Assembly: GCF_039555335.1 (NCBI RefSeq)
Contig: NC_092631.1
Coordinates: 3,165,001-3,229,000 of the forward strand
Source of the DNA: Amphiura filiformis
Lineage: Eukaryota > Echinodermata > Ophiuroidea > Amphilepidida > Amphiuridae
Length of the DNA stretch: 64,000 nucleotides
Reading direction: 5' to 3'
The stretch's first letter is position 1. Each line of letters starts with the position of its first letter. The position numbers and the translations under genes are program-made. The notes under the pieces are model-generated. The model made no database searches. It worked only from the letters and a program-made list of their open reading frames with translations, and was not told where the DNA came from. This document shows, in pieces, positions 30,801-63,512 of this stretch.

Positions 30801-33800
30801 TGGACTCGGACTCGGACTCGGACCCCAAGGACTCGGGGACTCGGCTTCGAGTCCTCCTCGAGTCCGGCAAAATAGGGTATTTTTCGTTCATTGTAAACTT
30901 CTTCTTATGCTTGATCAATGATCACATCACATGATTGATTTAAGTAATTTTACATGCAAATAAATTCAGTTTATAAATAAAAGTACAAGTACAACCAAAA
31001 AGCAAGATTGCTTTCAGTTATATCTTTAATTGGTTAAATGGATTTTAATCATAATCGTTTGTTTTGTACGGAAAGTCCAATCAACGGAAAGCCCAATCGG
31101 ACATTGTAACAGCATAACTGCTTGGTTAGGCGCAAGTCTAGAATATACATGAATAATAATTTGTGGGCAAAATAGGGCTTGATGAATTGAAATTTCAACA
31201 TTTTTGTGGAGGTCTGTGAACTAAAATTGGGCCATATTATAGGCTTTAAAGCTAACAAATTCAAAATGTTTCCAAATTTGAGCTAAAGAGCTACAATTTT
31301 TAGAGTGTTAGGCTCAATGAACTGGAGCATGATGCAAATGTGGGTCTCAAGGAACTACCAGAGAGCATGAAAAAGGGACCCTTGACAGCCACACATAGCC
31401 TACAAGTACCACCTTGTGTGAGTGACCCCCCCACTCCCGGAATAATACTGCATAGGCCTACAGCCAGATCCAACACCCTTTCGTTTGGCACCTGAAGTTT
31501 GGTAGTGACATCATATTTTGATTGTCATATTGCATCTTTTGCCTCTTTAAAACACAAGCCTTATAAGTTGGGGTGGGGAGTCTGTGAGTATAGTCTGATT
31601 GGGGGAAGGTAAAATTAGGGGCAAAATGCTCTAAAAAATGCTCTAAAATTGCTTAGAAAACAGTACGGAAACGCTTACATATTATTCAAATTTGCCTGCT
31701 CGCTGCGCTCGCAACATATATCCAAGGTTTGTAAATTGGGATCCCCAAAAATAGCATGTGCAAAGGGGTGCAAATTTTTTTGGCAGGCCGGGAGTGGGGG
31801 GGGCAAGCGATTTTTGGCAGGCTGAGAGGGGATATAGTTGGGTCCAGAATGGAAGTCCTGTTCTCGGTTTGAGTACAAGAAGTTTTGAAGGAGCTTTTTT
31901 ATTTATAGATTTGAGGACGCTGAATAAAATGAGAGGGGTCTGACCCATCGAAAAATGTGGGGAACTCTCGCTAGAGGGCGTTTTTCAAAATGGCCGCCAA
32001 AATCCCTTAAAAGCATCTCTTGCAATTTCACACCTTCCCGGGCTCCGCATAATTATTGCACAGCCCCAAAACTATACTAGGCATGCAAGGTGGGACTATT
32101 AAATTATGTATTTACAAGAAAATAATATAGAACTAAAATTCTGGTTAAATATAGGCCTATGTTGATAAAGTATTGGTCAAAACCTCAGGGCTTGAATTTG
32201 ATACATAAGGACTCGGACTCGGACTCGGACTCGAACATTGAGGACTCGGACTCGGACTCGGACATCAGAAATTGGCAAGGACTCGGACTCGGACTTGGAC
32301 TCGGACACCAAGGACTCGGACTAGGACTCGGACTCGGATGACGAGGACTCGACTACAACACTGGCCTTTGTTGATATTTTGATTAAGTTGCTCTTAAATG
32401 CCGCGATGTTTGCACATGGGTGTACAATGGCTTATTCTGCACTTACTAGGCAAGCTCAACCCCCTTGCCCTCTCCCTAAAGTGATCAAGGTCGATGTCGA
32501 TATTTTGTTTATAAGAATGCATACCTTTGGTAGATTCATTGTTGCTGTTATTATATTGTTGTTGTTGCTCTAGACTTCTCCGTAGCCCACTTGCCCATTT
32601 TGCATACTCTGGCTATTACATTTAAGCATAAAACACTGATTTGTATTAATTTGTGTGCAATTGATATATTTTCACATCTGATATTTTTCAGTCACCATAC
32701 TCCCTCTGTTTGTTAGCTTCCCAAGTGGACTACTTACTTTGGGTTGCGGTTTAGATTCTTTTAAGAAATTGACATAACTCTCCACAGAGTCCAGTGTTAA
32801 AACACTGGACTCTGTGGAGAGTTAGGTCAATTTCTGGCCTAACTAAAATTGGCCATGATGTAATGCATCTTTAAATTGATCTGGCTTGTGATTGGTCGTC
32901 CAGATCACGATATATATCCTCCGGGGACGTCCCATTACCATTAACTACATCGTACACAACAATCTATGGAAGTTGCGCCACCGTTTGTGGTGGCGCGAAA
33001 CTCTTAGTAATGCATGGACGTACATTTTAGCGCGTCATATTCTACCATGCTTAGTAATTGGATTGATAAACAAGTATGATTGACAGTGTGTTTTAGAGAC
33101 CAAAGTCCCGGGGTAAAGTTCTGCTTAGAAGTCAAAGTACATAGTCGGATTTTTTACGCGGGCTTTCGCGATCAAATCAGAATTGTTTAGTACTGAAGGG
33201 AGCCATTATAATTATGCAAGATATTTTGCATTCAATAACTTTTATTGTCACTAATCATCTAATTATATAAACTCTTTATGACCATTTTACTATTGAACAC
33301 TTTAATTTTAACATGTTTAATAAACATCAGTATAATTTTGAGTTCAACGGAATGCGTTCATCATGATTAAATAATAATAATATATATTTTTATCAAAATT
33401 CGACTATGGCATAGTCTACTGTTGCTCTGAAAAGGAGGGCTAACAAATAAAGAATTTTTCAATATTACATCAGATCATAATCCAAGTGAAATTATCTCAT
33501 GAATTGACTGTTACAGGTACCATACCAGGTCCCATAGTCTACGGCGCAACCTTGGATACATCGTGTCTTCTCTGGCAAGAGACCTGCGACGGTGACCAAG
33601 GATCATGCTTTCTTTACGACGCTAAAACCATCTCATGGAAGATGTTTCTTCTTGGGTTTGGGTTTCAATTCATAGCTCTTGTATTTTTCCTCATGGCTCT
33701 GTGGAGCTACCGTAGCCCTGATGATGTTGTTGAAGCTAAAGATAACGCAAATAAAACAATAGGAAATTCTGATTCAGATCTTACCGCAGATCATGCAGAT

Positions 33801-33953
33801 GATCATAATCAAAATGACAAGAGATTGCATAGACTCATTTCACAGAGTAGCCAAGCAGCAATACTGCCTAATGAAAGTCTACCTGATTATGACATTGATG
33901 GATTTCAACCAAGTTGCAAGCTGTCAAATGGGAGACTGATGTCGTATGTGTAG
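9570..33953 (+). CDS. Organic anion transporting polypeptide (SLCO4A-like), gene 1
   Basis: A spliced gene for a 12-helix plasma-membrane carrier of the OATP/SLCO family, which moves amphipathic organic anions (steroid and thyroid hormone conjugates, eicosanoids and xenobiotics in known members). Coding exons: 9570-9848, 12254-12412, 14232-14520, 16524-16626, 17802-17923, 18676-18936, 27349-27547, 28251-28398, 29311-29483, 30543-30607, 33517-33953. All introns are GT-AG and the phases join exactly, giving 2235 nt (744 residues plus stop), normal for the family. Visible marks are R-Y-G-W-C-G-W (62-68) before helix 1, E-R-R-F-D-L after helix 1, the OATP signature N-D-P-G-W-V-G-A-W-W (283-292), and a Kazal-like loop with ten cysteines (482-548). 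There is an acidic D7 run (50-56) and the C-terminus is S-Y-V. The ATG at 9570 has A at -3 and is the first in frame beyond a TTG. Untranslated exons are not resolved. It is convergent with a paralogue at 47808-37639. Confidence 0.95.
9910..10338. mobile_element. MITE family B, copy 1 (38-bp perfect TIRs)
   Basis: The 429-bp element begins TGTGACGTGTCATGTCAAAA and ends with the exact reverse complement over at least 38 bp. It sits 62 bp inside intron 1. A second copy is at 54775-55202. The interior is non-coding and AT-rich. Confidence 0.88.
11205..11400 (-). mobile_element. LINE reverse-transcriptase fragment
   Basis: The minus strand translates to C-D-P-E-H-N-D-I-I-C then G-V-P-Q-G-S-I-L-G-P, the well-known RT block of CR1/L2/Jockey-type LINEs. 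After a frameshift comes N-D-I and L-F-A-E, a decayed form of the F-A-D-D catalytic block. The fragment is short, broken and lies antisense in gene 1 intron 1. Confidence 0.75.
11548..11792 (-). mobile_element. MITE family A, copy 2
   Basis: It has the same termini as 7443-7674, with the interior in reverse orientation. It is 245 bp long, flanked by AT-rich TATA-like sequence, and inserted in gene 1 intron 1. Confidence 0.8.
11986..12207. mobile_element. MITE with TACCGTAA..TTACGGTA ends
   Basis: The ends are TACCGTAAGCCTAATGGCGC and a right end that reverse-complements to TACCGTAAACGTTCGCCTAA with the same GGCGC core. The middle contains a second inverted repeat around AAAAATCCCAGCAA (12067-12122). 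The right end stops 46 bp before exon 2 of gene 1. Confidence 0.7.
12254..12412 (+). CDS. Gene 1 coding exon 2 (residues 94-146)
   Basis: The acceptor TTTAG|GGT and donor AAG|GTACGA give a 159-bp phase 0-0 exon. It encodes the end of helix 1 (G-L-V-I-N-G-L-I-N-V-V), the loop T-L-E-R-R-F-D-L-P, and helix 2 with S-S-T-Y-D-I, closing with G-E-R-S-H-K. All are standard OATP positions. Confidence 0.95.
12850..13830. other. Intron 2 sequence without a recognised gene
   Basis: AT-rich intron with a TATACTGCGCACAAAAAGTA word near 12868 that recurs in altered form near 27767, suggesting a dispersed repeat. A 91-codon open frame at 13244-13519 has no family motif I know and no splice context. I do not call it a gene. 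Confidence 0.4.
13845..13965. repeat. Dispersed GC-rich repeat (GGCCGGCAGGCCCGAGGCC type), copy 1
   Basis: It contains GGCCGGCAGGCCCGAGGCCG, then a TAATGGA-TTCCAATAT block and CCGCAGGGCAAGAAAGCAA. Related copies lie at 37140-37250 (and inverted at 36160-36235) and at 44985-45070. All are non-coding. Confidence 0.65.
14232..14520 (+). CDS. Gene 1 coding exon 3 (residues 147-243)
   Basis: The exon is 289 bp, phase 0 in and phase 1 out. It encodes helix 3 (A-R-W-V-A-F-G-C-V-I-M-A-V-G), F-A-L-P-H-F, an extracellular loop with sequon N-I-S (176-178), helix 4 and the cytosolic M-D-E-S-V end. It is 9 bp (three codons) longer than the paralogous exon, the difference falling in the extracellular loop. 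Confidence 0.95.
15132..15202. repeat. Inverted repeat enclosing CCCTAA-like units
   Basis: The arms TGACCGTATTTGCCGGAA (15132-15149) and its reverse complement (15185-15202) flank degenerate CCCTAACC sequence. It is a small palindromic element in intron 3. Confidence 0.7.
15784..15821. repeat. AT-rich 18-bp hairpin
   Basis: GACATATTATCATAATTT is followed, after two bases, by its exact reverse complement. It is an intronic hairpin of unknown significance. Confidence 0.7.
16015..16326 (+). mobile_element. TTAA-flanked MITE family C, copy 1
   Basis: It is bounded by TTAA on both sides, with ends AAGGGTATTTCGCGATCC and (inverted) AAGGAGTATTTCGTAATCC. The core contains a palindrome around TTTCGTTCTGGTGTACCAGA. 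Three further copies lie in this window. TTAA target duplications are typical of piggyBac-type transposition. Confidence 0.85.
16323..16490 (-). mobile_element. TTAA-flanked MITE family D, short copy
   Basis: The ends AAGGTGCTACTACAC and GTGTAGTACCACCTT are inverted and bounded by TTAA. The right part matches the complete copy at 61581-61948. It shares its left TTAA with the family C element and ends only 33 bp before exon 4. Confidence 0.8.
16524..16626 (+). CDS. Gene 1 coding exon 4 (residues 243-277)
   Basis: The exon is 103 bp, phase 1 in and phase 2 out. It encodes helix 5 (G-I-F-F-A-M-S-T-L-G-P-A-I-G-Y) and G-S-L-L-N-I-Y-T-D-I-G, a highly conserved OATP stretch. It matches the 103-bp exon 4 of the paralogue. 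Confidence 0.95.
16958..17196. mobile_element. TTAA-flanked foldback MITE (family E)
   Basis: Both ends carry TTAA. The arms of ~105 bp are near-perfect inverted copies, starting AGGGCTCTGGTAACAACGTT and containing GAATACGAAGAATGTC. Partial relatives occur at 10915-11150, 18962-19035 and 26770-27249. Confidence 0.85.
17320..17470. repeat. Degenerate CCCTAA tract next to ATTAGTCCGAAAAC
   Basis: The words GATAGTCCGA and CATTAGTCCGAAAACCC are followed by degenerate CCTAACCC repeats. The same combination occurs at 47180-47290, and related CCTAA plus GGACTAATGAACC sequence occurs at 55870-56010 and 57390-57525. It is a dispersed element rather than a true telomere. Confidence 0.6.
17802..17923 (+). 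CDS. Gene 1 coding exon 5 (residues 277-318), OATP signature
   Basis: The exon is 122 bp, phase 2 in and phase 1 out. It contains the family signature at the start of helix 6, N-D-P-G-W-V-G-A-W-W-L-G-F-L. The usual basic residue of the D-x-R-W form is glycine here, as in the paralogue. It ends F-P-K-E-L-P before the donor G|GTAAGC. Confidence 0.95.
18151..18263. mobile_element. Palindromic MITE with CCGGTTAACC repeats
   Basis: The terminal arms AGGGATCAAGTCAAAACTCG and the reverse complement at the right end differ by one base. Internally there are several copies of ACCGCCGGTTAACCACCGG. The whole 113-bp element is nearly self-complementary. Confidence 0.8.
18334..18527. mobile_element. hAT-like MITE, CAGTGGCGTAG ends
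   Basis: It starts CAGTGGCGTAGCC and ends CTACGCCACTG. The flanks CTCCATTT and CTCCGGCA match at only four of eight bases, so the target duplication has decayed. A related element is at 30304-30461. Confidence 0.75.
18676..18936 (+). CDS. Gene 1 coding exon 6 (residues 318-405)
   Basis: The exon is 261 bp, phase 1 in and phase 1 out. It encodes the large cytosolic loop between helices 6 and 7, then L-S-D-F-P-R-A-I-K-Y-L-L, helix 7 and F-G-P-K-F-I-E-T-Q-F. An alternative donor GTAAAT ten bases downstream would break the phase of exon 7; the phase-1 donor GTAGGT matches the paralogue. Confidence 0.93.
18962..19035 (+). mobile_element. Truncated family E element
   Basis: It begins TTAAGGGCTCTGGTAGCAAC and follows the left arm of the 16958-17196 element until ATATCGAATTACA. 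It is then cut by the CATGCGCGTATTTT sequence that starts the purine tract block. Confidence 0.7.
19037..19345 (+). repeat. Polypurine (GAAA/GGAAAGAAA) tract with GC-rich leader
   Basis: The leader CATGCGCGTATTTTGCGG and G-rich sequence are followed by ~245 bases of almost only A and G from 19096. The same leader plus a purine tract recurs at 22541-22690, so the two are copies of one unit. The tract could adopt triplex (H-DNA) structure. Confidence 0.8.
19480..20956. repeat. ~70-bp minisatellite, main block
   Basis: About twenty imperfect tandem copies of a ~70-bp unit made of GCGGCTTGTAGCCAACCAAC, CATGATAGAGAGATAGAGG and GGCGGCACATACCAGGAATG. Unit lengths vary by a few bases. The minus strand is stop-free in all three frames for long stretches, producing spurious long open frames (up to 644 codons). 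It lies in gene 1 intron 6. Confidence 0.93.
20957..21535. mobile_element. 579-bp insertion in the minisatellite, 8-bp target duplication
   Basis: The tandem array is interrupted by unrelated AT-rich DNA starting CAGGGGGGGCC and ending ATCGTCTG. The octamer ACCATGAT is present on both sides (20949-20956 and 21536-21543). The C-A-G...C-T-G ends with 8-bp duplication fit a hAT-like element, although the inverted ends are very short. It contains the tRNA-like sequence at 21188-21262. Confidence 0.65.
21188..21262 (+). mobile_element. tRNA-like sequence (Gly/Val-like), probably SINE-derived
   Basis: An A-box-like TGGTGTAGTGGTTACGGATC and a B-box-like GATCGATTCCC are spaced as in a tRNA, with a CTCGCCGCCCACGC middle recalling tRNA-Gly. 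The acceptor and T stems do not pair. A T/A-rich tail follows. It is not a functional tRNA by eye. Confidence 0.5.
21536..22190. repeat. ~70-bp minisatellite, second block
   Basis: The same unit as 19480-20956 resumes for about five clear copies (to ~21905). It then degrades into partial units with GGCGGCTTGTAGGGCGGC words. Confidence 0.88.
22541..24085. repeat. Degenerate second copy of the purine-tract/minisatellite block
   Basis: The CATGCGCGTATTTT leader and purine tract (22541-22690) are followed by scattered, diverged GGGCGGCACAT and GGCTTGTAACCAGG units up to about 24085. The order matches 19037-20950, so this is an older or eroded duplicate of the same block. An hAT-like MITE is inserted at 22967-23420. 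Confidence 0.7.
22967..23420. mobile_element. hAT-like MITE with perfect 8-bp target duplication
   Basis: The ends CAGGCGCGTAGCAAG and CTTGCTACGCCCCTG are inverted, with flanking octamer GCGACTTG on both sides (22959-22966 and 23421-23428). It is 454 bp and non-coding. Confidence 0.85.
24225..25710. repeat. Spaced GCGCGCTTCGCGCGC palindrome repeats
   Basis: A GC-rich palindrome followed by ATTT/ACTT appears near 24232, 24604, 24952, 25220, 25549 and 25679. Intervals are mostly ~270-370 bases, each embedded in otherwise AT-rich, weakly similar sequence. It looks like a long-period, highly eroded tandem repeat. Confidence 0.6.
25780..26640. repeat. ~125-bp degenerate tandem repeat
   Basis: Roughly seven units each contain CAACTTCGGAGGG, a CTCAGACACCCC block, GTTAAACAAGTGAAAAATGA and CAATTTGGACCTTCATTTGG. 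Length and sequence vary strongly. The open frames here are by-products of the repeat. Confidence 0.75.
26770..27249. mobile_element. Foldback element related to family E
   Basis: The left arm contains GAATGTCCTTCTGATATCAA and ACAAATTTTATGGCAAATTA. The right arm carries the reverse complements (GCCATAAAATTTGT, TTTGATATCAGAAGGAC). It ends GAGCCCTTAAG, the family E terminus with TTAA. The left end is truncated. It ends ~100 bp before exon 7. Confidence 0.75.
27349..27547 (+). CDS. Gene 1 coding exon 7 (residues 405-471)
   Basis: The exon is 199 bp, phase 1 in and phase 2 out, after the 8.4-kb intron 6. It encodes helix 8 (V-P-G-G-I-F-G-T-F-L-G-G-Y), K-R-W-Q-L-K-V-R-G-M-L-K and helix 9, then the start of the large extracellular loop. 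The donor is AATGA|GTAATT. Confidence 0.94.
27618..27763. mobile_element. Small MITE, ATAATGAAAGACA ends
   Basis: The ends ATAATGAAAGACATAGATTA and the reverse complement near 27740-27763 frame a GC-rich core (GGCGCGCCGTGATTGGTTGG). It is an intron 7 insertion of 146 bp. Confidence 0.7.
28251..28398 (+). CDS. Gene 1 coding exon 8 (residues 471-520), Kazal-like domain
   Basis: The exon is 148 bp, phase 2 in and phase 0 out. It carries C482, C486, C488, C497, C508 and C512 in the pattern C-N-A-N-C-E-C...P-I-C-G-D-N-G-M-E-Y-F...C-F-A-G-C. This is the Kazal-like extracellular loop between helices 9 and 10. A second AG fifteen bases downstream would also keep frame. The 148-bp choice is supported by the identical length and aligned residues in the paralogue. 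Confidence 0.92.
28688..28722. repeat. 15-bp perfect GC-rich hairpin
   Basis: TAGACCCGTGACGTC and its reverse complement surround a 5-base loop. It is intronic with no evident function. Confidence 0.7.
29311..29483 (+). CDS. Gene 1 coding exon 9 (residues 521-578)
   Basis: The exon is 173 bp, phase 0 in and phase 2 out. It completes the cysteine-rich loop (C525, C527, C544, C548) with the sequon N-S-T at 534-536, then helix 10 (L-P-L-F-L-V-T-F-V-V-V-M-I-F-H-F). Confidence 0.95.
30304..30461. mobile_element. hAT-like MITE, CAGTGGTGTAGCCAGG ends
   Basis: CAGTGGTGTAGCCAGG and the inverted CCTGGCTACGTCACTG bound 158 bp. It is related in its ends to 18334-18527. It is inserted 81 bp upstream of exon 10. 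Confidence 0.75.
30543..30607 (+). CDS. Gene 1 coding exon 10 (residues 578-600)
   Basis: The exon is 65 bp, phase 2 in and phase 1 out: R-S-V-P-E-S-Q-R-S-L-A-L-G-V-Q-W-L-I-L-R, the conserved cytosolic loop and start of helix 11. A decayed duplicate lies at 32408-32492. Confidence 0.95.
30708..30868 (+). repeat. GACTCG hexamer array, copy 1
   Basis: Imperfect repeats of GACTCG/GGACTC, with inverted CGAGTC words in the middle, begin just after CAGTGTTGGAG. A similar array is at 32206-32353. It yields spurious arginine/threonine- or serine/glutamate-rich open frames. Confidence 0.85.
31140..31437 (+). mobile_element. Degraded relative of the 56453-56775 MITE
   Basis: Shared words in the same order include AAAATAGGGCTTGATGAA, TTTGAGCTAAAGAGCTACAA, GAACTGGAGCA and AAAAAGGGACCCTTGAC, ending GTGAGTGACCCCCCC. 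Both ends are eroded and no target duplication remains. Confidence 0.7.
32206..32353 (+). repeat. GACTCG hexamer array, copy 2
   Basis: Uninterrupted runs of GACTCG are separated by short spacers. The array ends GACTACAACACTGGCC, resembling the inverse of the sequence that opens copy 1 (CAGTGTTGGAGGACTCG). Confidence 0.85.
32408..32492 (+). pseudogene. Decayed duplicate of gene 1 exon 10
   Basis: From TTGCACATGGGTGTACAATGG onward it matches the 3' half of exon 10 and its first intron bases (30572 onward), with one inserted base and about nine substitutions over ~66 positions. The donor GT has become GC (CTAG|GCAAGC), the 5' half and acceptor are lost, and the insertion shifts the frame. It is a dead exon copy downstream of the real one, in intron 10. 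Confidence 0.8.
32764..32835. repeat. 72-bp near-perfect palindrome
   Basis: AGAAATTGACATAACTCTCC and following sequence is mirrored with one mismatch around a central AA at 32799-32800. It can extrude a cruciform. It lies in intron 10. Confidence 0.85.
33517..33953 (+). CDS. Gene 1 coding exon 11 (residues 600-744)
   Basis: The terminal exon is phase 1 in. It encodes helix 11 (G-T-I-P-G-P-I-V-Y-G-A), D-T-S-C-L-L-W, a short cysteine loop, helix 12 (F-I-A-L-V-F-F-L-M-A-L-W-S-Y) and a ~90-residue acidic, serine-rich cytosolic tail with N-E-S-L-P-D-Y-D-I-D-G-F. The C-terminus M-S-Y-V fits a class I PDZ ligand (S-x-V). The stop is TAG at 33951-33953. Confidence 0.95.
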
Positions 33954-34095
33954 CTGGATATGCCTTGAATGGTCTCAATGTGGATCAGGTCCGCGTGAAA
34001 GGTCTCAATCTGGATCAGGCCCGTATGAATGGTGGGTGGCCACAGATTCCGGAGCCTTTAGGGTCTTTATTGAGCTTATAGAATCCCGTCTTCAT

Positions 34096-37638: not shown

Positions 37639-47808
<10,170 letters not shown>

Positions 47809-49599: not shown

Positions 49600-50690
49600 T
49601 GGATATCAAAGGTGCATTTGACATAATGGAATTTGCTCGAAACTAATGCATGGCAAAAGGAGTATCCGGCAAGCTTCTCACTTGGATTAGGAGCTACCTG
49701 ACAGATAAGGCAAGTTGCCTTAAGTATTTCCTCCATCAATGCATCAGTTCCCCAGGGGTCCATATTGGGCCCACTTTTTTTCTCCGTCTTCATTGATGAC
49801 CTTGGTGATGAGTGTGAAAACCAACTCTACCTCTACGCAGATGATTCCACCTTGTTTTGTTAGATTACATCTGGAGACAACTCTGAAGTCGTTTCTGCTG
49901 CTAGCCTGAACAGAGACTTGGAGAGTATAAGGATCTGGGCATACAGATGGAAGGTGATATTCAAGTCATCGAAATGTAAGACAATGACAATATCAACAAA
50001 GAGGAATCCAACCAAGCTAGATCTTCTTTTTGGTATCACCTAACTAGCTGAGCAGGTGGAGCTGAAGATATTAGGAGTCAGTCTACAGCAAGCTAACCTG
50101 GACAAAGCACTTTTCTAACGTCTCATCCAGAGCAGGACAGAAGCTGGACGCTCTGAGGAGAGCGCATAAACTTGGTGTCAGAGGCAGAGCAACCGTTTAC
50201 AAGGCTCAAGTTCGCAGTGTGATGGGATATGCCTCACTGTCTTGGATGAGTGCCAGCGCTACAACTCTAGGATTACTACATGTAGACTTTATCAGCTTCT
50301 ATCCAGAGTAAGGCCCTTCAAATCATAGGCTTGAGCGAAGAGGAAGCAAGTACAGAGCTGAACATCGCATCTCTCCATCAAAGACGTCAACATGGTCAGG
50401 TGGCTGCAGCAACAGTTCTCAAAATGTATACCAGCTACGCCATCCACCAATCAGATCTGAAAGGCACCACCAAAGCCATTTGTAGTCAGAGGTGCTACCC
50501 GCTCCAGCAGTACCAGTGTCTAGAACTGTATCTACTGGCAGGAACTTCATCCACACTGCAGTTTACGTTTGGAATAGCCTACCAGATGGAGTAGTCGGAG
50601 ACGTAACTGACTACGGCGCATCATCCTTCAAGAGCAGAGTGCATAAGCATCTTATTGCACGTGTCTGATGCTTCAAACGCGGGGTGTCAA
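49600..50690 (+). mobile_element. LINE remnant, RT C-terminal half
   Basis: Across shifting frames: L-D-I-K-G-A-F-D (~49620), G-V-S-G-K-L-L-T-W-I-R-S-Y-L (~49660), V-P-Q-G-S-I-L-G-P (~49750), L-Y-A-D-D-S-T-L-F (YADD at 49834-49845). Then come a thumb region with S-K-C-K-T-M-T-I-S and a C-terminal D-Y-G-A-S-S-F-K-S-R-V-H-K-H-L. Several stops and frameshifts mean it is inactive. It is a different lineage from the 1.9-4.4 kb element. Confidence 0.85.
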
Positions 50691-50699
50691 ACTTGTTTT

Positions 50700-53600
50700 G
50701 GCATAAATCTACTCCTATCAAAGTGAATTGAAGTAGACCTATTCACTTTCTTTACTTAAACAAGAGCACCAATGGTGCTGCAGCTCATTTTCCCTAATTA
50801 AATATGCAAATTAGTTAATTAATATGCTTAACATTTGAGTATTTTTTGTTTATATCAATTACTTTGTACCAAGTTTTAAATTTCTATGATCTTCACACAA
50901 AACCGATTACACCTGTCTCACCTTAATATAAAGCAGGGCCAAATTTTTACGAGCTGCATAGTCAATAAGATAACAATAATGTTAATTGGACCACTAAGTA
51001 CTTATCTTGGAGACAAACAAGTGGGTGAGAAGCAAAACAAGAAACAATTATATTGAGGGTTTAGGACCATACACTGCAAACCCAAAGTGCGTATATTTCA
51101 GCAGATCCTCTAAAATTGGTTTGGCAGTAACAATGAGGGATTAATTACTAAATATAGGCACAAATTTAGACCACTATTTGGGGAGTATACAATCCAGAAG
51201 ATCAGACCTCAAATGTAGTCTGATAAATAGACTCAAAATTAGACACTATAAGCCCAAAACAGCATAGGGTGCATTTTACACATGGGTGGTTCTGGAATAA
51301 GAAGCAAACATGGGTAACATTGTGGGATCTTATAAATCATTGCAAAGGAGCAATTTCCAGTTCAGTGAATTGCTAGCAAACAATAAGCATGGATTTCAAT
51401 GGTGATGTTATTAATAGTATTACATACTGCAGTTACTGTCCGTTTTCCTATACACAATACACAGTGCTCTCACCATTGACGCGTGACCTCTACAAATGAT
51501 GTACGTTGGAAGAATGGGCACATGCCTAGTTAACATCACTGTGTGAAAAATAACCAGCCAATATTTTAGTTATTCTCCAATCTTCTAGCAAATATATTTC
51601 TCTAACATGACCTAAAATTACAGCTAGGTTAGATGTTCAGAAATAGTCGCACTTTTGTAAAATATGAGTGAGGGCAAGGCATAGCTAGCCAACTCCCCGT
51701 GTTAATTGAATGGAGATTTGACCGAAAATATTAGTATCGGACCGCTCACTTCTGAAGAATGAAACTAAAAAAGGGTATAAGCTACATTTTAACTATTCTA
51801 AATAGGTTCTAGAAAATATAGTTTTGTAACATGTCCCTAATTTTTAGCTAATTTAGATGTTTGGAGAGGGTCGCACTTTTGTGTTTTAGGAAGGATATGT
51901 AAACGACAGATAACACCAAAAATATGAAGAAATTATTTCCAAACCGTGTTAAGTCAACAATCATTATGTTGCTCATTTTGAAGAATGCTGGTTAACAAAA
52001 AGCAGGTCTTTGTCTCATTTCGTGAACAAAAGTACACATACCATTGTTTCCTTTCGTTTCCTTTATAATCGGTTACCCAACTGAAGCTATAATACCAGCT
52101 TTATTGTGATGTCGCACATTGAAAACAGACACTTGTGCACAACCAGAGAAGATCTGATTTAATCAGTTGAGCTGCTTCAATGAGTGTTATCTTGGTTTAA
52201 TAGCTTTTAATGGGGTTTAAGTCCTGCAAAGGTCGAAATGAATTCTACTGTAGACATGACTGCATCATGATTTGAGCAGTAATTTTACATATAGTTGTAC
52301 AACAATCAACATTGAATAATAGTTAGTGATCTTCAGAAAAAGTGTATAACAAACCAATTGGGAGGGAGCTAGCAGACCATGAATGTGTCTATAATAATTG
52401 TTTCCATAAGTAATTTTGTCCAGTATCAGTTTAACAAAGGCTAATACTCTAGATTCATATCTAATCTCCAATACTAGAAGTTTTGCTGAATTTAGACGTT
52501 CTGGGTTTGCAGTGATAGCTGCTCCATAGACATTTGGGTAATTTCTGCATTCTATATTGTACACATTTTACACCTGGCAGCTATTGCAGGTAGGGGTTTC
52601 TTGCCCTAAACCCCTAATGTGTACTTTATCTCTTATACAAAATTGTAAAAACACATCTAGGTAGGGTTTATGCAATAGCTGTCAAGTGCTTTATTTTTAA
52701 GATTATGTATAGGGTAGCTATTGCAGATACGACCTTCTCGATATAATTACTTTCACGACATGTTTGCCTGATCTAATTAAGTGTATTTAATTAGCTCTCA
52801 GTTTATTTGCTCAGTATTTTATGACTGCTAAGCCTTTATAGTTGTTTACTGGCCCCCCCCAAAAAAAAAAAACACCTCCCAATTGGAAAAATTACACATT
52901 ATTAGCACATAGCAGCACCATTGAGTTATTAGTTAGCCTTGGTGCAATATCTATGGACTTGCAAAATGTATGGCAAGCAACACTGAAAAGCAAACATTGA
53001 AGCCGCACTGAAGCAATTAAAATTCAACATCTCTTTTACAAAATCGCCAGATCAAGGAGTTTGAACAGTGTTTGTAATATGATCAGCACCACAAACAGTC
53101 TGTAAAGGAGACTATTCTATGAAATCTGGTAAAATTTTCGTAAGAAAATGCTCCAAAAATCACACTTTCCGTCCGAATTTTCCTAGCTAATTAAGTAACA
53201 ATCATGAACGATCATGCAAAGATTGCTCCCTCAAATTAGCAGCTCCATTGGTCAAACGATGTAGCAAGAGAAAGTAAAAAACATACAGAAATATGGACTA
53301 CACCTATAGCTACATTTGCGAGCAAATGAGCTAAAAATGATGTTCGCATTTTTTACCATGAAAAATTATTTTGCACATTTCTAAATAAATGTCGAAAATT
53401 AATTCAAATTGAAAATTTTCACGTGCTTCTAATGATTAGACCCAGCGGTCCTAGCAAGTCCTTTTGTATGTCCTTTTTCGCTCCTAAGACATTGTAAGAA
53501 GTCCTTTTTTCTCCTAAGTCCTTTTTCGCATTACATGTCCTTTTCCGCTCCTCAGAAGTCCTTTTTACGAGACTGAACTACTCGTATAAACTATAATGTT

Positions 53601-54130
53601 CAATTTTAATTGAATGTTTACCTTAATTGCCTTTATTGTATATATACCAAACGTGATATATCACGTATATATTTTACACCTCACTGAAACTCCTTTAGAC
53701 ACCATGTATGTTAGAATATGTGTTATATTTTGTTAAGGTTAGTCCTAACCCTGGAATTGTGAAAACCGTTGGGACGTACTCGTAACTGGTAAATTGTTGG
53801 TCTGAAGTATTTATAAAAAGTATAGGCCTACAAAAAAGCCCTACATAATAGAATGGCAAAGACAAATTTGGGCAAAAATAATCCTTTTTTGAGAAAATAC
53901 CCCCGTTTTTTACCGTTTTTGCAGCGATGGTCCAAGTGTGTGAAAATATTGGATCCAAAAGATAATAATGATAAATTGGATGCTTTACGCCCAATGTTTA
54001 TTGGTCTCGCTACTCTATAGCTCGACCAATAAATATGAGCTCAATCAAATCCAATTTTATATCAATTGTTTTCACCTATCGCTTATGGTACTTTACTAGG
54101 CTGTCTTCCGCCCAAGCCAAAAAGTATAAT
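50700..54130. other. Intergenic stretch, no recognised gene
   Basis: AT-rich DNA with only short open frames, no family motifs, no splice-consistent exons and no clear tandem array. A small cluster of GTCCTTTTT words lies near 53455-53570 and also ~48540. Confidence 0.5.
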
Positions 54131-54136
54131 CCCTAA

Positions 54137-54479
54137 TTAAAGGGCATTTCGTGATCCACAGCCTCATCCCCCCACTTTTCTCAAAAAAAGTTGAGATCTT
54201 TATATCACTGGAAACCTCTGGCTACATAATGTTTATGTACAAAATATTTCTTGCAGATTAATTCGGTTTGCAAAGATATCGTGAAATTTGAATTTCGTTC
54301 TGGTGCACCAGAACGAAATTACAACGCATTGTCTATGGAGCAGTGTAATACACATAATCACGCATAACTCGCAAACGCAAAATCGGAATCAACTGAAATT
54401 TTGGGAATAGGCTTTTTTCGTGGATATGTACTGAAAAATGTCATAAAGAGGATGCTAGGATCATGAAATCCTCCTTTAA
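54137..54479 (+). mobile_element. TTAA-flanked MITE family C, copy 3
   Basis: Same ends and central palindrome as 48767-49111, ~343 bp, with TTAA at both borders. Confidence 0.9.
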
Positions 54480-54774
54480 GTTGACCTATTTCTCAACTAT
54501 AATTAAAATATTTATTTCACCAATTCTTAAGTAAATAAAATGTTGCACAAAATAAGAGACCCAGGGAGAATCACAGTCGAAAAGTGCAAAAAGTAATAAA
54601 AAAAAAACCCAAAACAGACAATGTATTCTTTTAACATTTAAAGTGTAGATTGATTGCAGATTTCTTTTTTACCATAATAATAATGCTACCTATTTTTGCA
54701 TTCTGAAAGACGTCAAATGCATAATATATTATCTTGATCAATTAATGTTTTGAATTTATTAAAAAACAAACATA

Positions 54775-55202
54775 TGTGACGTGTCATGTCAAAAGCAGAC
54801 ACTTAGTTTTGGGCAGGTTATGAATTTTGAGGTTTTTACATATCTTAAATATAGAGATATTTTGCCTCACGACGACGTTTTCCCCAATGAAATCGGACAT
54901 TCCTAAGCGAAGATATTGAGTTCGGAAGTTATGGTATTATAAAATTGGAAATTGAGATATCGGCCTTTAAAAATATTATTGACAATGTTGATACTAGAAT
55001 TGACTTGAAAAATGTCTCAAAAAATACAAGATGCCAGTTATATTCCGGTCTGAAACTATCAGACAATATTTTTAACATTGATAACATCACAAATTCGCAA
55101 CAAACCCAAATTGTGAAAAAAACCACCCACCGGCAGATTTTTGGCTATTTCTCCATTTCCGATCCTGCCCAAAAGTGTCTGGTTTTGACATGACACGTCA
55201 CA
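54775..55202. mobile_element. MITE family B, copy 2
   Basis: Inverted ends TGTGACGTGTCATGTCAAAA, interior ~90% like 9910-10338, flanked by TA on both sides. Confidence 0.88.
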
Positions 55203-55564
55203 TATGATTGTGTGATTTACTCCTGCTCCGAAGTGTTCTAAATAACACCACTTTCAAAAATCAAGTGGAGAGATGCATCATGCTTCTGTTTGAGGGTAAT
55301 TTTTTTATAATGGTGCCTACCTTTTTGTGGGCAAAATAATTTACCGGTGGGCATTTTTGGGCATGGGCAAGTTGAATTCACTGGGTGGGCAAATTAATTT
55401 ACTGGGTGGGCAAATGCCCATTAGTCTCCTGTTATTTACCTCCCCACCGGGCGTATGTGTAACTGGATAAATGAAAAAAAGGAAAGTTTTTTATTTCAAA
55501 CTCTAATGGTGACCCGCAGGTCAAATTGCTAGAATTGTACATTAAACACACCTATAAACAGACA

Positions 55565-55795
55565 CAATGCAATTTCCAGGCAGCAGCTTAATCAGCGCCA
55601 ATAATGCAACATTGAAACAAACAACTATACAAAAATCCAATCCAACCCAACCACATCCCCCAGTAGGCAATGAGGATAAAGTGTCTTGCCCAAGGACACA
55701 ACACGTTGGCACGAGCGGGGCTCGAACTCACAACCTATGGATTATGAGTCGGGCGCCTTATCCACTCGGCCACACGAGCTCGGCCACACGTACAC
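55565..55795 (-). mobile_element. tRNA-derived SINE
   Basis: On the minus strand an A-box-like GTGGCCGAGTGGATAAGGCG and B-box GAGTTCGAGCCCC are spaced as in a tRNA. They are followed by GTTGTGTCCTTGGGCAAGAC, a body motif shared by many invertebrate and fish SINEs. A 5' acceptor pairing is absent, so it is a SINE, not a tRNA gene. Confidence 0.75.
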
Positions 55796-56452
55796 ATGAC
55801 TTGAATAGTCTCAATGTGGATGTGGACATCACCTCGGGTGAAATCGGGAGGGTATATCAGCAGTGGGAGCATAGCCCTAATTCTAACATATAACCTAAGC
55901 CCAAATCCTAACCATAAATATATGCCTGCAATCCTAACCCAAATTCTAGCACTAATCTTAAATGCCCTAAACCCTAACTTTAATAATTTTGGACTAATGA
56001 ACCTTCAGACTAATATACTGTTCCCCTAAACCAATAAATGTGAACATTTTGTTCCTTACAAACGTTCCTAGCTCTCTATTAAAAGCAGGCCTTAAATTGA
56101 TGCTTTAAAATGAAAACCCGATTCGGAAATTGCCATGCAAATAAGGTCACGCTTCAAATGAGAAAATATTGAGTACATGTAGCGATAAAGTCTACCTGAA
56201 TATGACATTGATGGATTTCAACCGAGTGATCCAGAGTGATAATGTATGTGTAGCTGTATAGGACTTGAATAGTCTCAATGTGGATAATTCTTTGATGTTG
56301 TTATACCAACTCTTCTTTCAAAAATTACTTCTGTTTCCCACCCACTTTTTGGTCCTATACAACTATCGGTGTCCGGTTAGGTACTGATTTAACATCACAC
56401 CTTGGCGATATAATAAATTGTATCAAGCATAATAATTAACAGTTGCATAGTG
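55796..56452 (+). repeat. Duplicated segment, copy 1 (first part)
   Basis: GACTTGAATAGTCTCAATGT, ACCTCGGGTGAAATCGGGAG, CCTAA-rich sequence and an OATP last-exon fragment follow in the same order and with >90% similarity at 57315-57968. Copy 1 continues after the inserted MITE at 56453-56775. Confidence 0.9.
56187..56285 (+). pseudogene. OATP last-exon fragment, copy 1
   Basis: The translation K-S-L-P-E-Y-D-I-D-G-F-Q-P-S-D matches the gene 1 tail E-S-L-P-D-Y-D-I-D-G-F-Q-P-S. The following bases GTATGTGTAGCTG and CTTGAATAGTCTCAATGTGG match the gene 1 stop region and 3' UTR (33942-33984). Only ~100 bases remain, with no acceptor or helix 12. It derives from gene 1 or a lost third paralogue. Confidence 0.8.
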
Positions 56453-56775
56453 CCCGGGGGGGCACTCAACTTAAATTTTGGTAGGGGTGTGCGGCGCGGA
56501 GCGCCGAACTTTGGGAACTAAGAACTGATTTTCGGGTAAAATAGGGGCTTGAAGAACTGAAATTAGGGCCAAATTATAGGCTGTTGAGCTAAAAATTTCT
56601 AAATTATTTCCCAATTTGAGCTTAAAGAGCTACAATTGTCAGAGTTTGAGGCTCAAAGAACTGGAGCAGATCCAAATGTGGGGCTTAAGGAACTGCCGGA
56701 GAGCCTGAAAAAGGGACCCTTGACCGCCGCACATACCCGTACCACCTTAACATGTGAGTGTCCCCCCCCCCCCGG
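56453..56775 (+). mobile_element. hAT-like MITE with target duplication and empty-site paralogue
   Basis: 323 bp from CCCGGGGGGGCACTCAACTT to GTGAGTGTCCC...CCGG, flanked by GCATAGTG on both sides (56445-56452 and 56776-56783). The duplicated segment at ~57966 has the same locus with a single GCATAGTG and no insert. Confidence 0.9.
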
Positions 56776-56917
56776 GCATAGTGTTATTGTTTTTCATTTA
56801 AATAAAAAATGAATGCATTTGCTGTACAAATGTTCAGGGTACAATAAAAAGTGCCTTCGGTACCTCTTTGGGCATCGATAGCGCTATAGGACCAAAAAAG
56901 ATGTTGTGCCTTAGATA

Positions 56918-57178
56918 AGGCAAAGTTGCCTTAAGTATTTCCTGCATCACTGCATCAGTTCCCCAGGGGTCCATATTGGGCCCACTTTTTTCTCCGTCTT
57001 CATTGATGACCTTGGTGATGAGTGTGAAAACCAACTCTACCTCTACGCAGAAGATTCCACCTTGTTTTGTTAGATTACATCTGGAGACAACTCTGAAGTC
57101 GTTACTGCTGCTAGCCTGAACCTCGGAGACTTGGAGAGTATGAGGATCTGGGCATACAGATGGAAGGGCATACAGATG
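56918..57178 (+). mobile_element. LINE fragment, copy of 49715-49960
   Basis: AGTTCCCCAGGGGTCCATAT, TTCATTGATGACCTTGGTGA and CTACCTCTACGCAGAAGATT are nearly identical to the 49.7-kb LINE, with YADD changed to Y-A-E-D. It ends in a small duplication of GGGCATACAGATGGAAGG. Confidence 0.85.
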
Positions 57179-57314
57179 GAAGGTGAAAATAATTTACTGG
57201 TGGGCATTTTTGGGTATGGGCAAGTTGAATTCACTGGGTGGGCAAAATAATTTACTGGGTGACACTAGTCTCCTGTTATTTACCTCCCTGTCAGGCGAAT
57301 GTGTAACTGGATAT

Positions 57315-58103
57315 ATGACTTGAATAGTCTCAATGTGGATGATGTGGACATCACCTCGGGTGAAATCGGGAGGGTATATCAGCAGTGGGAGCATAGCCCT
57401 AATTCTAACATATAACCTAAGCCCAAATCCTAACCCTAAATATATGCCTGCAATCCTAACCCAAATTCTAGCACTAATCTTAAATGCCCTAAACCCTAAC
57501 TTTAATAATTTTGGACTAATGAACCTCCCGACTAATATGCTGTTCCCCTAAACCAATAAATGTGAACATTTTGTTCCTTACAAACGTTCCTAGCTCTCTA
57601 TTAAAAGCAGGCCTTAAATTGATGCTTTAAAATGAAAACCTGATTCGGAAATTGCCATGCAAATAAGGTCACGCTTCAAATGAGAAAATATTGAGTACAT
57701 GTAGCGATAAAGTCTACATGAATATGACATTGATGGATTTCAACCGAGTGATCCAGAGTGATAATGTATGTGTAGCTGTATAGTACTTGAATAGTCTCAA
57801 TGTGGATAATTCTTTGATGTTGTTATACCAACTCTTCTTTCAAAAATTACTTCTGTTTCCCACCCACTTTTTGGTCCTATACAACTATCGGTGTCCGGTT
57901 AGGTACTGATTTAACATCACTCCTTGGCGATATAATAAATTGTATCAAGCATAATAATTAACAGTTGCATAGTGTTATTGTTTTTCATTTAAATAAAAAA
58001 TGAATGCATTTGCTGTACAAATGTTCAGGGTACAATAAAAAGTGCCATCAGTACCTCTTTGGGCATCGATAGCGCTATAGCCCAAAAAAGATGTTGTGCC
58101 TTA
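57315..58103 (+). repeat. Duplicated segment, copy 2
   Basis: Second copy of the 55.8-56.9 kb segment without the MITE. It ends at TTGTGCCTTAAAC, where copy 1 joins the LINE fragment. Confidence 0.9.
57709..57807 (+). pseudogene. OATP last-exon fragment, copy 2
   Basis: Same as 56187-56285 with a few substitutions (CTACATGAATATGACATTGA), including the same changes relative to gene 1. It was therefore duplicated after its capture. Confidence 0.8.
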
Positions 58104-58109
58104 AACATT

Positions 58110-58206
58110 GAATTCTTTCATTTCGGATGTAATTTTATCCAGTTTTTTTTTAAACTTCAAAGAAATTCACTTTGTTTGGCAATTATGATTTTGAATTTCC
58201 AAATCA
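58110..58206 (+). repeat. Inverted repeat arm (partner 59482-59577)
   Basis: GAATTCTTTCATTTCGGATG through TTGGAAATTCAAAATCAT-type sequence is present as reverse complement 1.3 kb downstream. The intervening DNA has no gene. Confidence 0.75.
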
Positions 58207-58470
58207 TACACATACGCACTAACATCTCCAGTACATTTTACTAGTAATGTTTAAACGCCCAAAACGCATTATACGCATACTATTCAAAATGCGATACGTG
58301 TGCGAACACAGTACGCGTATATGACAAACAAGTGTGCTTACGCACAAACATGCGTAGTACATAATTAGCCTCACGTTATAAAAGGTCAGCAGACCTTGCT
58401 CGTCCTTCAACATGTTTGAGGGGAGTATGCCGATTTAATTTGGTTACGTAAGGTATCCTTTCAAAGCAAA

Positions 58471-58608
58471 CACTATGGACCACAAGAGCCTCGGGCCCAA
58501 TGGCACAGTCCAATAACCTCAATTACATAATCATAGTGCAAAATTTGACCTCAAGTTGCAGAGTATGAGTTTTTGTACCCAAATCTTCAAAGGTCATTCA
58601 ATGAATGT
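58471..58608 (+). repeat. Inverted repeat arm (partner 62039-62175)
   Basis: CACTATGGACCACAA, GCAAAATTTGACCTCAAGTT and AAAGGTCATTCAATGAATGT are found inverted at 62039-62175, 3.4 kb away. Confidence 0.8.
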
Positions 58609-59262
58609 ACACATGTATTGGGGTATAAGAACTTCCCCTGATAGATGAGAATGTTGTGGATCTTAATGAAATGAACTGGGAATTGTTTCATTGTAAAAGT
58701 TCTAATGTTGTCCTCGAGAGAGACAGTTATATATGCTTCGCTATGCATCAGTGTGTTAAAACAGGCTACCATTGCAAAATATTATGAAGCGAGAAAAACG
58801 TGCGTCTGGTTGTACATAACACGCGGGCAAGACAGGCAAAACAATAATGTAACATTAATGTTTCACATTCCCTCCCCCTCCATATCAATGTTTAAGCAAA
58901 CACTTGACTAAACGTCATTTAACTTGAAGGTTACTACTTGTTTATAAAGAATGCAAATGAAGTGCTCAAACCTTAACATTTTCCTAACACCCCATCCCTC
59001 CCCCTCCCCCTTCCCCACCAATCAATGTTGGGTTCTATTAGGCTCCCGTGACCAAACAAATTAGGATTCAAAATTGCAGAGTCCGAACACGGAGGCTATT
59101 CATAAGACCCAAATCAACATTGTTACGGGGGAGGAGGGGGTCGAATATGGTGCGTGGTCCTCAAGTGTCCCAAGACTAGTTTCCGTACTTTGCGTTTTGT
59201 TTACAAATTCCTTTCCGATGTTAATGACATTTAAATAAAAAAAAAATTGACAGTGATTCGTC

Positions 59263-59343
59263 GTCATCATTAACATTATCACCATCATCATCATCATTAT
59301 CATCACCATCATCACCATAATCATCATCATCACTACCATTGTC
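59263..59343 (+). repeat. ATC-rich microsatellite
   Basis: An ATC/ACC/ATT trinucleotide array of ~80 bases. The methionine/valine-rich minus-strand open frame is an artefact of it. Confidence 0.85.
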
Positions 59344-59481
59344 AAAGGAATACATTTCTTAAATCACGTTTTTAAACTTGAGCCTAGTTTGCCACCAAAA
59401 AATATCAACTACCAGATAAGGCTCAAATAAAAATAAAGAGAACTATTTACAGTCCATTTAAAAACAAATTTGTTTTAGATA

Positions 59482-59577
59482 ATGATTTGGAAATTCAAAA
59501 TCATATTTCCAACACAAAGTGAATTTCTTTGAGGTTTAAAAAAAGTGGATTTAATTACATCCGAAATGAAAGAATTC
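59482..59577 (-). repeat. Inverted repeat arm (partner 58110-58206)
   Basis: Reverse complement of 58110-58206 with scattered substitutions. Confidence 0.75.
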
Positions 59578-60317
59578 GGTGTTCTTACCCGTCTTCAAAT
59601 CACCATCCCATAATATGACAGAGACTAGACTTGCCTAGTACATCTCAAATGACTCGAACAATATTAGATCTTTACAAACACAACTGATTTTCAAACATTT
59701 ATTAAACTTCTGCATAATTATTGAAATCCATTATATATAAACCAGTCCAGGAGTGCGCCTTATATGGATCGCCAGTATAGCATAATAATACTCTCATACC
59801 ACATGGCTACATTCATCTCATTGCATCTCCATCTGGTCAGTAGTTTGGCTGGATCATAGACCCTGAAAACAGGGTCTATGGCTGGACCAGGAAATTATAT
59901 ACACATGTATCAAGCACATGTGCTCTATGCGAGATAACTTCCTGGATTTCAAAAGGCCAATGGACAATCTGTAAAAGCAGAATTTTTTCGTTTATCTTTT
60001 ACATATTCTTTAATATATTGGCCATTGGCTTTCTGATAGAAATAAGATAATCTTGATGTGTTTACAGTTTCCCATAAGATCACCACACACTGTACAGACA
60101 AATTCAAAGGTTTTACTTCCCATATTTAGCATTGTTCTAAGACTGATAATTTAAGCTGAATTATAGGTCAGTTTGCACCTAGACCATGATCTAGATCTGA
60201 CATTTGCACACACGAATGATCGAAGCAGGTCATTGGCAGCGATTGAATCCACATTTACACTTTGTTTCACCTCTGGTTTGGAAGTGAAGTACATGTGTGT
60301 TTTGCTAATAATTGCTG

Positions 60318-60796
60318 TATCATGTATATGTGCTAAATGGTGTACATATACATACAAAAGCAGCTTGTTGGCATGCTTGCAATGCAGCTGTGTAAAAAGT
60401 TCGACACAACTACCAAACTTTAAGTGAAACAACATGGTGATTGTACCTTAAACACACGCCCACATCAGTGCCAGCAGTGACCAACTTTGATATTAATTGT
60501 TATGCTGGTCACATTGCAAATCTGAAAGATACATATTAATGTGAGATCATATAATCAAAATGTTGGACATGAAATAGTTGGCTTAGTAACCTTTTTAGAT
60601 GCACAAGCCTGACTGGCCAGTATAGAACCCTCACTGGGAAGCTGCTGAATTTACCAAACAGCTTCTAGACCAACTTCCTTCCCAATGTTGTTTCACTTAA
60701 AGTTTGGTAGTTGTGTCAGTACTTTTTACGCAGCTGCATTGCAAGCATGCCAACAAGCTGCTCTTATACATGTACACCATTTAGCATAATACATGG
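60318..60796. mobile_element. Foldback element, GCAGCTTGTTGGCATGCTTG arms
   Basis: The arm at 60318-60433 is repeated inverted at 60687-60796 with ~90% identity over ~110 bp. The ~250-bp centre is unrelated. There is no coding signal. Confidence 0.8.
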
Positions 60797-61580
60797 GGTT
60801 TTTTATTTTGGATTAGGTAGGGATGTGCTTCAAGGATTCTGTAAAAATACCCCCAACATTGACCAAAATCTGATGGATTTTTTTTGATCATATATGTTCA
60901 AAATTATGATAAATTTACCCTATTCTGGAAAATTTGTGACAATTTTGCTACAAATAATTAAGAATCTGCACCTTTTCCAGATTTTGGAGGGAAATTTTCA
61001 ACAAATTAATGCCTATCTCCAAACCAGCTTTCTGAAAATTGTGATCCAAAGTCTGAAAATGCACCCCAAATCGCCGCACATCCCGTACGTATACCCACCC
61101 AATAAGAACCCGCCCCACCTCATGGAACTATTCAATCCTGCCCCTAAGACTCCAGTCTTAGCTTCAAAAAGATTTAATTTTGTATCTGTATATATAATTT
61201 CATTGCACATATTTTCCATAAATACAGTTACCAAGGTTTGTATATTACAAACAAAATTATACAAATATTCTCCTCAAATCAAGAAAATTTACATCTCTAG
61301 CCTTAAAAATCAAAAACTTATCAAGATCATTCAAACTATATATAATTCTGAGTACAAATTAAAATTTTCATATCCCTCTGTTCTGTCTATAACCTCTTAA
61401 TTTCTTAAGGACAAACAATATATCAAAATCTGCAAATACCATTATTCCACAACCATTTTGATTAAGGTTTTGCATCTTAGAAAACTGCAAAAATCCCCCC
61501 ATAGCGCCGCCACTGTATAACTCATCATCCTACATGATGCAAACACACTCATCCTTCAATCACCCTGTCCACAATTTAAA

Positions 61581-61948
61581 TTAAGGGGGTACTACACCCC
61601 TCGATAAATTTGTGTCTATTTTTGCATTTTTCTCAAGAACTAATAACACAGTGGTAACAAAAGTTATGTATATTATAGGGGCAAGGTATCCAATTACTAC
61701 ACTGAAATTTCAGTGACCCAAGACAAGCGGTTCGTTATTTATGATAAGAAATAAGGTACCGCTAGGATGTACCTCATTTCCGATCATATATACTGAACCG
61801 CTTGTCTTGAGTCACTGAAATTTCAGTGTAGTAATTAGATTACTTGCCCCAATAATATACATAACTTTTGTTACCAGTGTATTTTTATTTTTTGAGAAAA
61901 ATGCAAAAATAGTCACAAATTTACCACAGGGGTGTAGTACCCCCTTAA
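61581..61948. mobile_element. TTAA-flanked palindromic MITE family D, complete copy
   Basis: TTAAGGGGGTACTACACCCC and its inverted partner bound 368 bp. The two halves are ~165-bp inverted copies containing AAAAATGCAAAAATAGTCAC and CACTGAAATTTCAGTG. Confidence 0.9.
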
Positions 61949-62038
61949 GAACAAATGTGATTGATGGAAGCGGCATTCACTAGGATCCACAACATGCTCA
62001 TCTATCAAGGCACAATTATTTAAGCCCAATACATTTGC

Positions 62039-62175
62039 ACATTCATTGAATGACCTTTGAAAATTTGGGTACAAAAACTCACACTCTGAAACTTGAGGTC
62101 AAATTTTGCACTATGATTGTTTAATTGAGGTTACTGAACTATGCCATTAGGATGAGGCCATTGTGGTCCATAGTG
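62039..62175 (-). repeat. Inverted repeat arm (partner 58471-58608)
   Basis: Reverse complement of 58471-58608 with a few changes and small indels. Confidence 0.8.
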
Positions 62176-62646
62176 ATTGTCTCCTCCTTTTAATTTCTCC
62201 CTCTAATTTCTTTAGGATACATACAAAAAGTTCAAATGCAAAAACTGATATATCCAGTAATTTCAGCAAGCATCTTGCATAATATTCATACATTTATACA
62301 CCACACAAACACACATCTTTGAAACATTTACAAAGCAACATTATACTAATATAAATACAGACACTTAAAACAAAATACCCTTATCAAAGAAAAAGCTGCA
62401 ATTATAAACTGTCCTCTCTGAAACAAATAGCAGCTAGGTTGTACAATAACTTAAAATACACCACAACCCACGAGCTTCACTATATTCAGTGTATGATAAT
62501 GATACACCATTCTCAAAATAATCAGAAGTGTGTTCGATGGGAGTGGCATACTATATTGTACAAGTATGCCATTAACACCTATTAATTATATGTGTACAGT
62601 CACACACATAGTATTTTAGCTGTATTACCTATGCAAGTTTATCCTC

Positions 62647-62989
62647 TTAAAGGAGTATTTCGTGATCCTAGCATCCTCTATTTATGTCATTTTTCATTAG
62701 ATATCCACGAAAAAACCTATTCCCAAAATTTCAGTTGATTCGATTTTGCGTTCGTAAGTTATGCATGATTATGTGTATTACACTGCTCCATAGACAATGC
62801 GTTGTAATTTCGTTCTGGTGCACCAGAACGAAATTCAAATTTCACTATATCTTTGCTAAACGAATTAATCTGCAAGAAATATTTTGTACATAAACATTAT
62901 GTAGCCAGAGGTTTCCAGTGATATAAAAATCTCAACTTTTTTTGAGAAAAGTGGGGGATGAGGCTGTGGATCACGAAATGCCCTTTTAA
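62647..62989 (-). mobile_element. TTAA-flanked MITE family C, copy 4
   Basis: Same element as 48767-49111 in reverse orientation, 343 bp, TTAA at both borders. Confidence 0.9.
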
Positions 62990-63349
62990 TATAAAAACAT
63001 GGTATATTATTCCCAGAACAGTCTGGTTACATGTAAGTCATGTACATTATTCAACCTAATAAAAGAGTCCCTACCCCAATCAACACCACTGTGGACATCT
63101 CACTTCTGTATAATTGTCCTCTTTTGAGTGAATTTATCATAATATGGGGTGAAACATGGAAATTAAAATGGGAAACTCATCTGAGTATTGACTTGCCATG
63201 GATTTTGAGTAAGTTAAATATGACACTAATAGGTTTACTATGGCATAAGTTCAGAACTTAATTCATATAAATACACACCACAAAATTAAGCTACATTCAG
63301 ACACTGACATCACAAAATTGAGCTATATTCAGACACTGGCCTTACACTA

Positions 63350-63512
63350 TTTTTCACCCTGATGCGGCAGTGATGTCAACGAGTTGAGGCAGCTGTTTTG
63401 TGGTGTCTTTAAGAGCATGTGTGAGTATGCTAGCTCTTTGAGCGAACACTAGCGATTTGAAGCTGTGCCCAATGAAATGCCCACTGATGTCACTGTCACA
63501 TCAGGGTGAAAA
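63350..63512. mobile_element. MITE, TTTTTCACCCTGATG ends
   Basis: TTTTTCACCCTGATG-GGCAGTG and the inverted CACTGTCACATCAGGGTGAA bound ~163 bp. TGATGTCA is present at the inner side of both arms. Confidence 0.75.

Follow-up and report, generated by a model that had tools for sequence, protein, structure and literature searches.

We found that the flank of a pair of OATP genes carries, twice, a slice of about 100 bp that matches the end of one of these genes, and the best explanation, to which we assign a probability of about 0.6, is that the slice was copied there as a repair patch, that the stretch bearing it was duplicated later and that further insertions came last, in copy 1 only. In particular, a slice of ~100 bp comprising part of the terminal exon and the start of the 3′UTR would first have been copied ~22 kb downstream, its source being OATP gene 1, a close paralogue or an older allele, and it would probably have served as patch material when a break next to small mobile elements was mended by template switching. 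A stretch of ~0.9 kb that contained the slice would then have been duplicated in tandem, the gap between the copies being filled with an internal piece of a reverse-transcriptase element, and, later still, a SINE-like element and an element with G-rich ends would have entered copy 1 only. Divergence suggests the order OATP slice (10–15% from gene 1, depending on the alignment), tandem copy (2.3% between the copies), then copy-1 insertions. The homology, the tandem pair, the slice that parts its copies and the insertion-free sites of copy 2 are observed, whereas the direction of copying, the sequence of steps, the repair mechanism and the absence of a function are inferred. All positions are those of the window, by which we mean the whole stretch of 64,000 nucleotides that was analysed.

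The window holds two OATP genes that lie tail to tail and whose exons pair up in the same order. The features at the end of gene 1 that matter here are the following.
exons from ~9.5 kb to 33953, + strand: OATP gene 1
~47.8 kb to 37.64 kb, − strand: OATP gene 2
33513..33953, + strand: last exon of gene 1, which ends ...NESLPDYDIDGFQPSCKLSNGRLMSYV followed by the stop TAG (identified by Pfam OATP and by homology to the last exon of gene 2)
33874..33985, + strand: donor-like stretch (last 25 codons of gene 1, stop and 32 bp of 3′UTR)

Judged from their sequences, both OATP genes are real. Five of the six exon frames submitted to Pfam matched OATP above the cut-off, exon 1 of gene 1 being the one that gave no match, and the last-exon frame of gene 1 (33444–33950) did so with an E value of 5.2e-15. 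When compared with solved OATP structures in the PDB, the last exon of gene 1 matched 13 distinct sequences with E values of at most 1, the best of which was a chain named OATP 1B1 (E 8.6e-08), and the upstream part of this exon matches gene 2 at 59–64%. Both proteins terminate in S-x-V, which we take to be a PDZ-type C-terminus that fits a class I PDZ ligand; the excerpted text of PMC9479004 describes some OATPs as being routed by PDZ motifs. Several repeats accompany gene 1. A 30-bp unit occurs about twice in its 3′UTR (33966–34023), with the copied slice stopping within the first unit, and a tandem satellite of 68–69 bp (19480–21939, in arrays of ~21 and ~6 copies) lies in the gene-1 intron that separates the exon at 18654 from the one at 27345. 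An element of ~430 bp with inverted ends is present at 9907–10339 and at 54772–55203, in copies that are 90% alike, one of which begins ~50 bp past the end of the gene-1 exon-1 homology.

The tail of gene 1 recurs in the flank as a longer fragment, tail B, and a shorter one, tail A, as follows.
56187..56285, + strand: OATP tail fragment B, copy 1 (spans the coding tail, the stop region and the first UTR bases, with 13 bp fewer than gene 1)
57709..57807, + strand: OATP tail fragment B, copy 2
57299..57340, + strand: tail A, copy 2 (limited to the stop region and the first UTR bases, the coding part before them being absent)
55453..55469, + strand: left half of tail A, copy 1
55798..55821, + strand: right half of tail A, copy 1 (the 24-mer GACTTGAATAGTCTCAATGTGGAT)

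With blastn, 33874–33985 aligned to 56187–56285 with 86 of 112 columns identical and 13 gap columns (E 2e-20), and to 57709–57807 with 84 of 112 columns identical (E 1e-17); in a gappier alignment of gene 1 with the two copies of tail B, 89/99 and 87/99 ungapped columns were identical. The match is far better than chance, since local alignment of 33512–34100 with 55250–58200 scored 107, whereas none of 200 dinucleotide shuffles exceeded 34; a chance-level match, which would have refuted the initial annotation, is therefore not what was observed. Tail A of copy 2 scored 59 (maximum 31 in 500 shuffles), and in copy 1 the two halves of tail A are parted by the SINE-like insertion. Exact copies of the 24-mer lie at 55798, 56262 and 57317, and at 57785 there is an exact copy that comprises its last 23 letters. 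These findings agree with much of the initial annotation, which had placed two ~100-bp copies of an OATP coding tail and stop region 22–24 kb from gene 1 inside a duplicated segment, together with shorter relics of the same UTR near 55800 and 57318. The distance is correct, both relics lie within the longer tail A (the one at 57317 belongs to a 45-bp match, 57296–57340), and all pieces of tails A and B fall within a tandem pair, 55333–56913 and 57186–58103, that is wider than had been claimed.

In this region, neither the piece of exon that directly precedes the tail (score 20, against at most 32 in shuffles) nor the gene-1 UTR beyond the tail (score 25, shuffle maximum 36) found a match, and no 3′UTR sharing with gene 2 was detected. 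Because the exon before and the UTR after are without a match and the similarity starts within the last exon, the flank holds a slice and not a copy of the gene. In the frame of gene 1, tail B of copy 1 reads SLPEYDIDGFQPSDPE and then a stop; being 13 bp shorter than gene 1, tail B is frameshifted and ends early, and the slice is probably functionless, inert rearranged DNA. Two letters common to tails A and B differ from gene 1, so that the donor may have been a sequence other than gene 1.

The segment that bears these tails is built as follows.
55333..56913, + strand: tandem unit, copy 1, with two insertions that copy 2 lacks
57186..58103, + strand: tandem unit, copy 2, free of both insertions
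55475..55797 (ends approximate), − strand: SINE-like insertion with a tRNA-like head, in copy 1 only and absent from copy 2
56453..56775, strand not assigned: 323-bp insertion with G-rich ends, in copy 1 only, flanked by the 8-bp repeat GCATAGTG
56913..57172, + strand: internal slice of a reverse-transcriptase element, forming the spacer between the tandem units
57150..57183, + strand: perfect 16-bp tandem slip at the spacer's right-hand junction (2.1 copies, 100% matches)
57867..58090, strand not assigned: short element with inverted termini that adjoins, and does not surround, fragment B

Once the two copy-1 insertions are removed, the tandem copies agree at 894 of the 915 letters aligned (15 gap columns), and copy 2 retains the insertion-free sites. 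The 8-mer GCATAGTG is present at 56445 and 56776 in copy 1 and once, at 57967, at the corresponding site of copy 2 (it also occurs once at 42173, within a related element), and a relative of the G-rich-ended insertion lies in an intron of gene 1 (31159–31444). The SINE-like insertion is tRNA-Leu-like at a relaxed ARAGORN threshold only; at default settings no tRNA gene was found in the window. (Note that the tRNA-like part of this insertion is overlapped, at 55707–55779, by a sub-threshold Rfam match to Plastid-ycf2, with 33.3 bits against a cut-off of 65.7, that is probably due to chance; the two Rfam matches obtained for 48000–64000 are both far under their gathering scores and were taken as chance.) The right end of each tandem unit is the short TIR-type element, whose inverted termini are 44 nt long and 73% complementary at 57867–58090 and 42 nt long and 76% complementary in copy 1, and which has a diverged relative at 42128–42289.

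The spacer between the units is 95% identical to 49703–49959. The frame of this relative at 49702–49860 matches positions 114–160 of the 205 in the RVT_1 profile, and was the one frame of the four compared with profiles to give a match, the spacer's own frame giving none. (A further reverse-transcriptase piece at 2959–3315, with an RVT_1 E value of 1.7e-12, probably comes from a different element than the one at 49.7 kb, to judge from 29% over 66 residues.) As read from the alignment, the spacer is joined to its neighbors with overlaps of ~1 bp, in addition to the 16-bp slip. Given that the reverse-transcriptase slice and the slip separate the tandem copies, this join would be best explained by template-switch repair, and the OATP slice may, by analogy, have arisen in the same way. 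The unit joins slices that are without their donors' ends, one of them with a slip at the join, which points to template switching: the OATP slice has neither the 5′ part of the exon nor the further UTR, and the reverse-transcriptase slice is likewise internal. One point against this explanation is tail A: each unit bears this further, shorter copy, whose flanks differ, and to account for it another patch or a duplication within the unit is needed.

A transposon of the Pack-TIR or Helitron type may instead have captured the OATP tail and carry it, with the tandem pair as two of its copies. In favor of this reading, the tandem unit is crowded with small mobile elements, a TIR element begins 59 bp past fragment B, and the excerpted text of PMC8277862 gives 370 Pack-TIRs in 100 animal reference genomes. 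We consider this possible but unlikely. A Pack-TIR holds its capture between the TIRs of one DNA transposon, whereas fragment B (57709–57807) lies to the left of, and outside, the inverted termini at 57867–58090; because the slice is beside, not within, the TIR element, we do not class it as a Pack-TIR. For copy 2, 12 inverted pairs were listed; the 4 that have fragment B between their arms are 12–16 nt each and none of them is exceptional, the longest being 57235–57250/57851–57866 (81%). Helitron captures have as their hallmarks a 5′ TC, a 3′ CTRR with a hairpin, and dispersed copies. In the 64-kb window no dispersed copies of the core of the unit (57341–57866) were seen: aside from a CCCTAA-like stretch and the matches to the OATP tail, it is present only as the tandem pair, in contrast to a repeat of ~345 bp with four dispersed copies. 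(The members of that family, at 48764–49111, 54139–54480, 62647–62989 and 16007–16326, are 80–97% alike.) Reading of the unit ends, which have no independent definition, revealed no target duplication. The suggestion in the initial annotation that a gene fragment was captured and amplified by a repeat survives in part: copying followed by duplication is most likely, but a pick-up by a mobile repeat is less probable, as the TIR element at 57867–58090 does not enclose the fragment and the core is seen in the window only as the tandem pair.

Copying could also have run the other way, with the final codons, the stop and the first UTR bases of gene 1 all coming from a repeat that inserted there. 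In each of its three settings (gene 1, tail A and tail B) the stop/UTR block (GTATGTG...GTGGAT) is sharply bounded, and the protein homology between the last exons of genes 1 and 2 stops at 33884 (NESLP), near the start of the shared stretch. Moreover, the very ends of the two genes are unlike at the DNA level (33862–34100 of gene 1 against the end of gene 2 scored 17, with a shuffle maximum of 27). However, position 33884 is already 11 bp into the shared stretch, the codons S-L-P within it are common to both genes, one blastn alignment of gene 1 with gene 2 continues to 33907, S-x-V terminates both proteins, and no further copies of the shared stretch were found in the window. The entry of the gene-1/gene-2 homology into the slice (to 33884 and 33907), together with the shared S-x-V, favors the donor stretch as genuine OATP coding sequence. 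The evidence on direction is modest, since gene 1 past 33907 is without likeness to gene 2 and the end at 33907 appeared only when the gene-2 exon served as the query. On these sequence comparisons it is more likely that the donor stretch is true OATP coding sequence and that the flank copy is derived, and we regard the reversed direction as improbable.

More doubtful again is the other suggestion of the initial annotation, that a dead third OATP gene, on the + strand, has left the slice as its last trace. The window already has a pair of OATP genes, the slice spans the 3′ end of a gene and, read in its frame, it closes with what could plausibly be an alternative C-terminus, but no other convincing OATP exon piece was found in the 64 kb outside the two genes. 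With 22 exon translations, tblastn (hits below E 5 printed, sense-strand hits within the two gene spans left out) recovered the two tails at E 0.001 and 0.018, the remaining hits having E values of at least 0.13. With 25 exon and UTR pieces, blastn (E up to 0.05, low-complexity filter on) recovered the partner gene, the tails and seven weak hits with E values of 0.001–0.05 that we judged to be repeat-like or chance: four, at 18.0 and 59.3 kb, came from gene-1 exon 1 and pair an acidic stretch of that exon with simple repeats, while the others were one to exon 6 of gene 1 (25.2 kb) and two to exon 11 of gene 2 (3.4 and 59.3 kb). The upstream part of the last exon, as noted above, has no match beside the slice, while the slice itself is ~87–90% alike on ungapped columns. 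A dead gene is unlikely, then, because it must have lost all but its last 100 bp with that part still so well preserved. The OATP slice looks like ordinary non-working genomic debris, not a hidden third gene.

Least probable of all is that the unit belongs to a mobile, multicopy family of ~0.9 kb that carries an OATP stop-codon/3′UTR block in its own body and spreads gene tails (a stop and possible PDZ-motif codons) across the genome; were the unit a dispersed family, it would represent gene-tail shuffling in an animal. A processed retrocopy was ruled out, since the match covers part of one exon only and has no A-run, 56285 being followed by AATTCTTTGATG. Exact-pattern scans of viral contigs and of prokaryote contigs returned zero matches each, as expected for animal DNA and thus uninformative on whether the unit is a wider repeat, and a literature search on OATP clusters in sea urchins and echinoderms gave nothing relevant among the matches listed.

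As explained by patch repair and later duplication, the locus is a small, well-preserved case of a gene end that was copied to intergenic sequence and afterwards duplicated, and its successive layers can be ordered: the donor slice, the filler slice, the tandem copy and the insertions confined to one copy. In practical terms, it warns against calling a third gene from a 100-bp OATP match in this region. The general class for comparison is the unprocessed pseudogene fragment, which the slice resembles in being a frameshifted gene piece near its likely parent and from which it differs in being a single partial exon, remains of other exons not having been found in the window. As far as the excerpted text of Tan et al. 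goes (PMC8277862), single-copy Pack-TIRs in animals come mostly from gap filling, and animal TIR elements are reported to have had gaps filled with small slices. The present slice is like these single-copy Pack-TIRs in being short (the median duplicated size given there is 224 bp), in having a nearby donor and an adjoining TIR element and in showing, at this locus, no sign of later transposition; it is unlike Pack-TIRs in that it lies outside the terminal inverted repeats. The internal slice of an unrelated element between the unit copies, the tiny overlaps and the 16-bp slip resemble the templated (filler) insertions that the excerpted texts of PMC2567098 and PMC11724301 describe at double-strand breaks.
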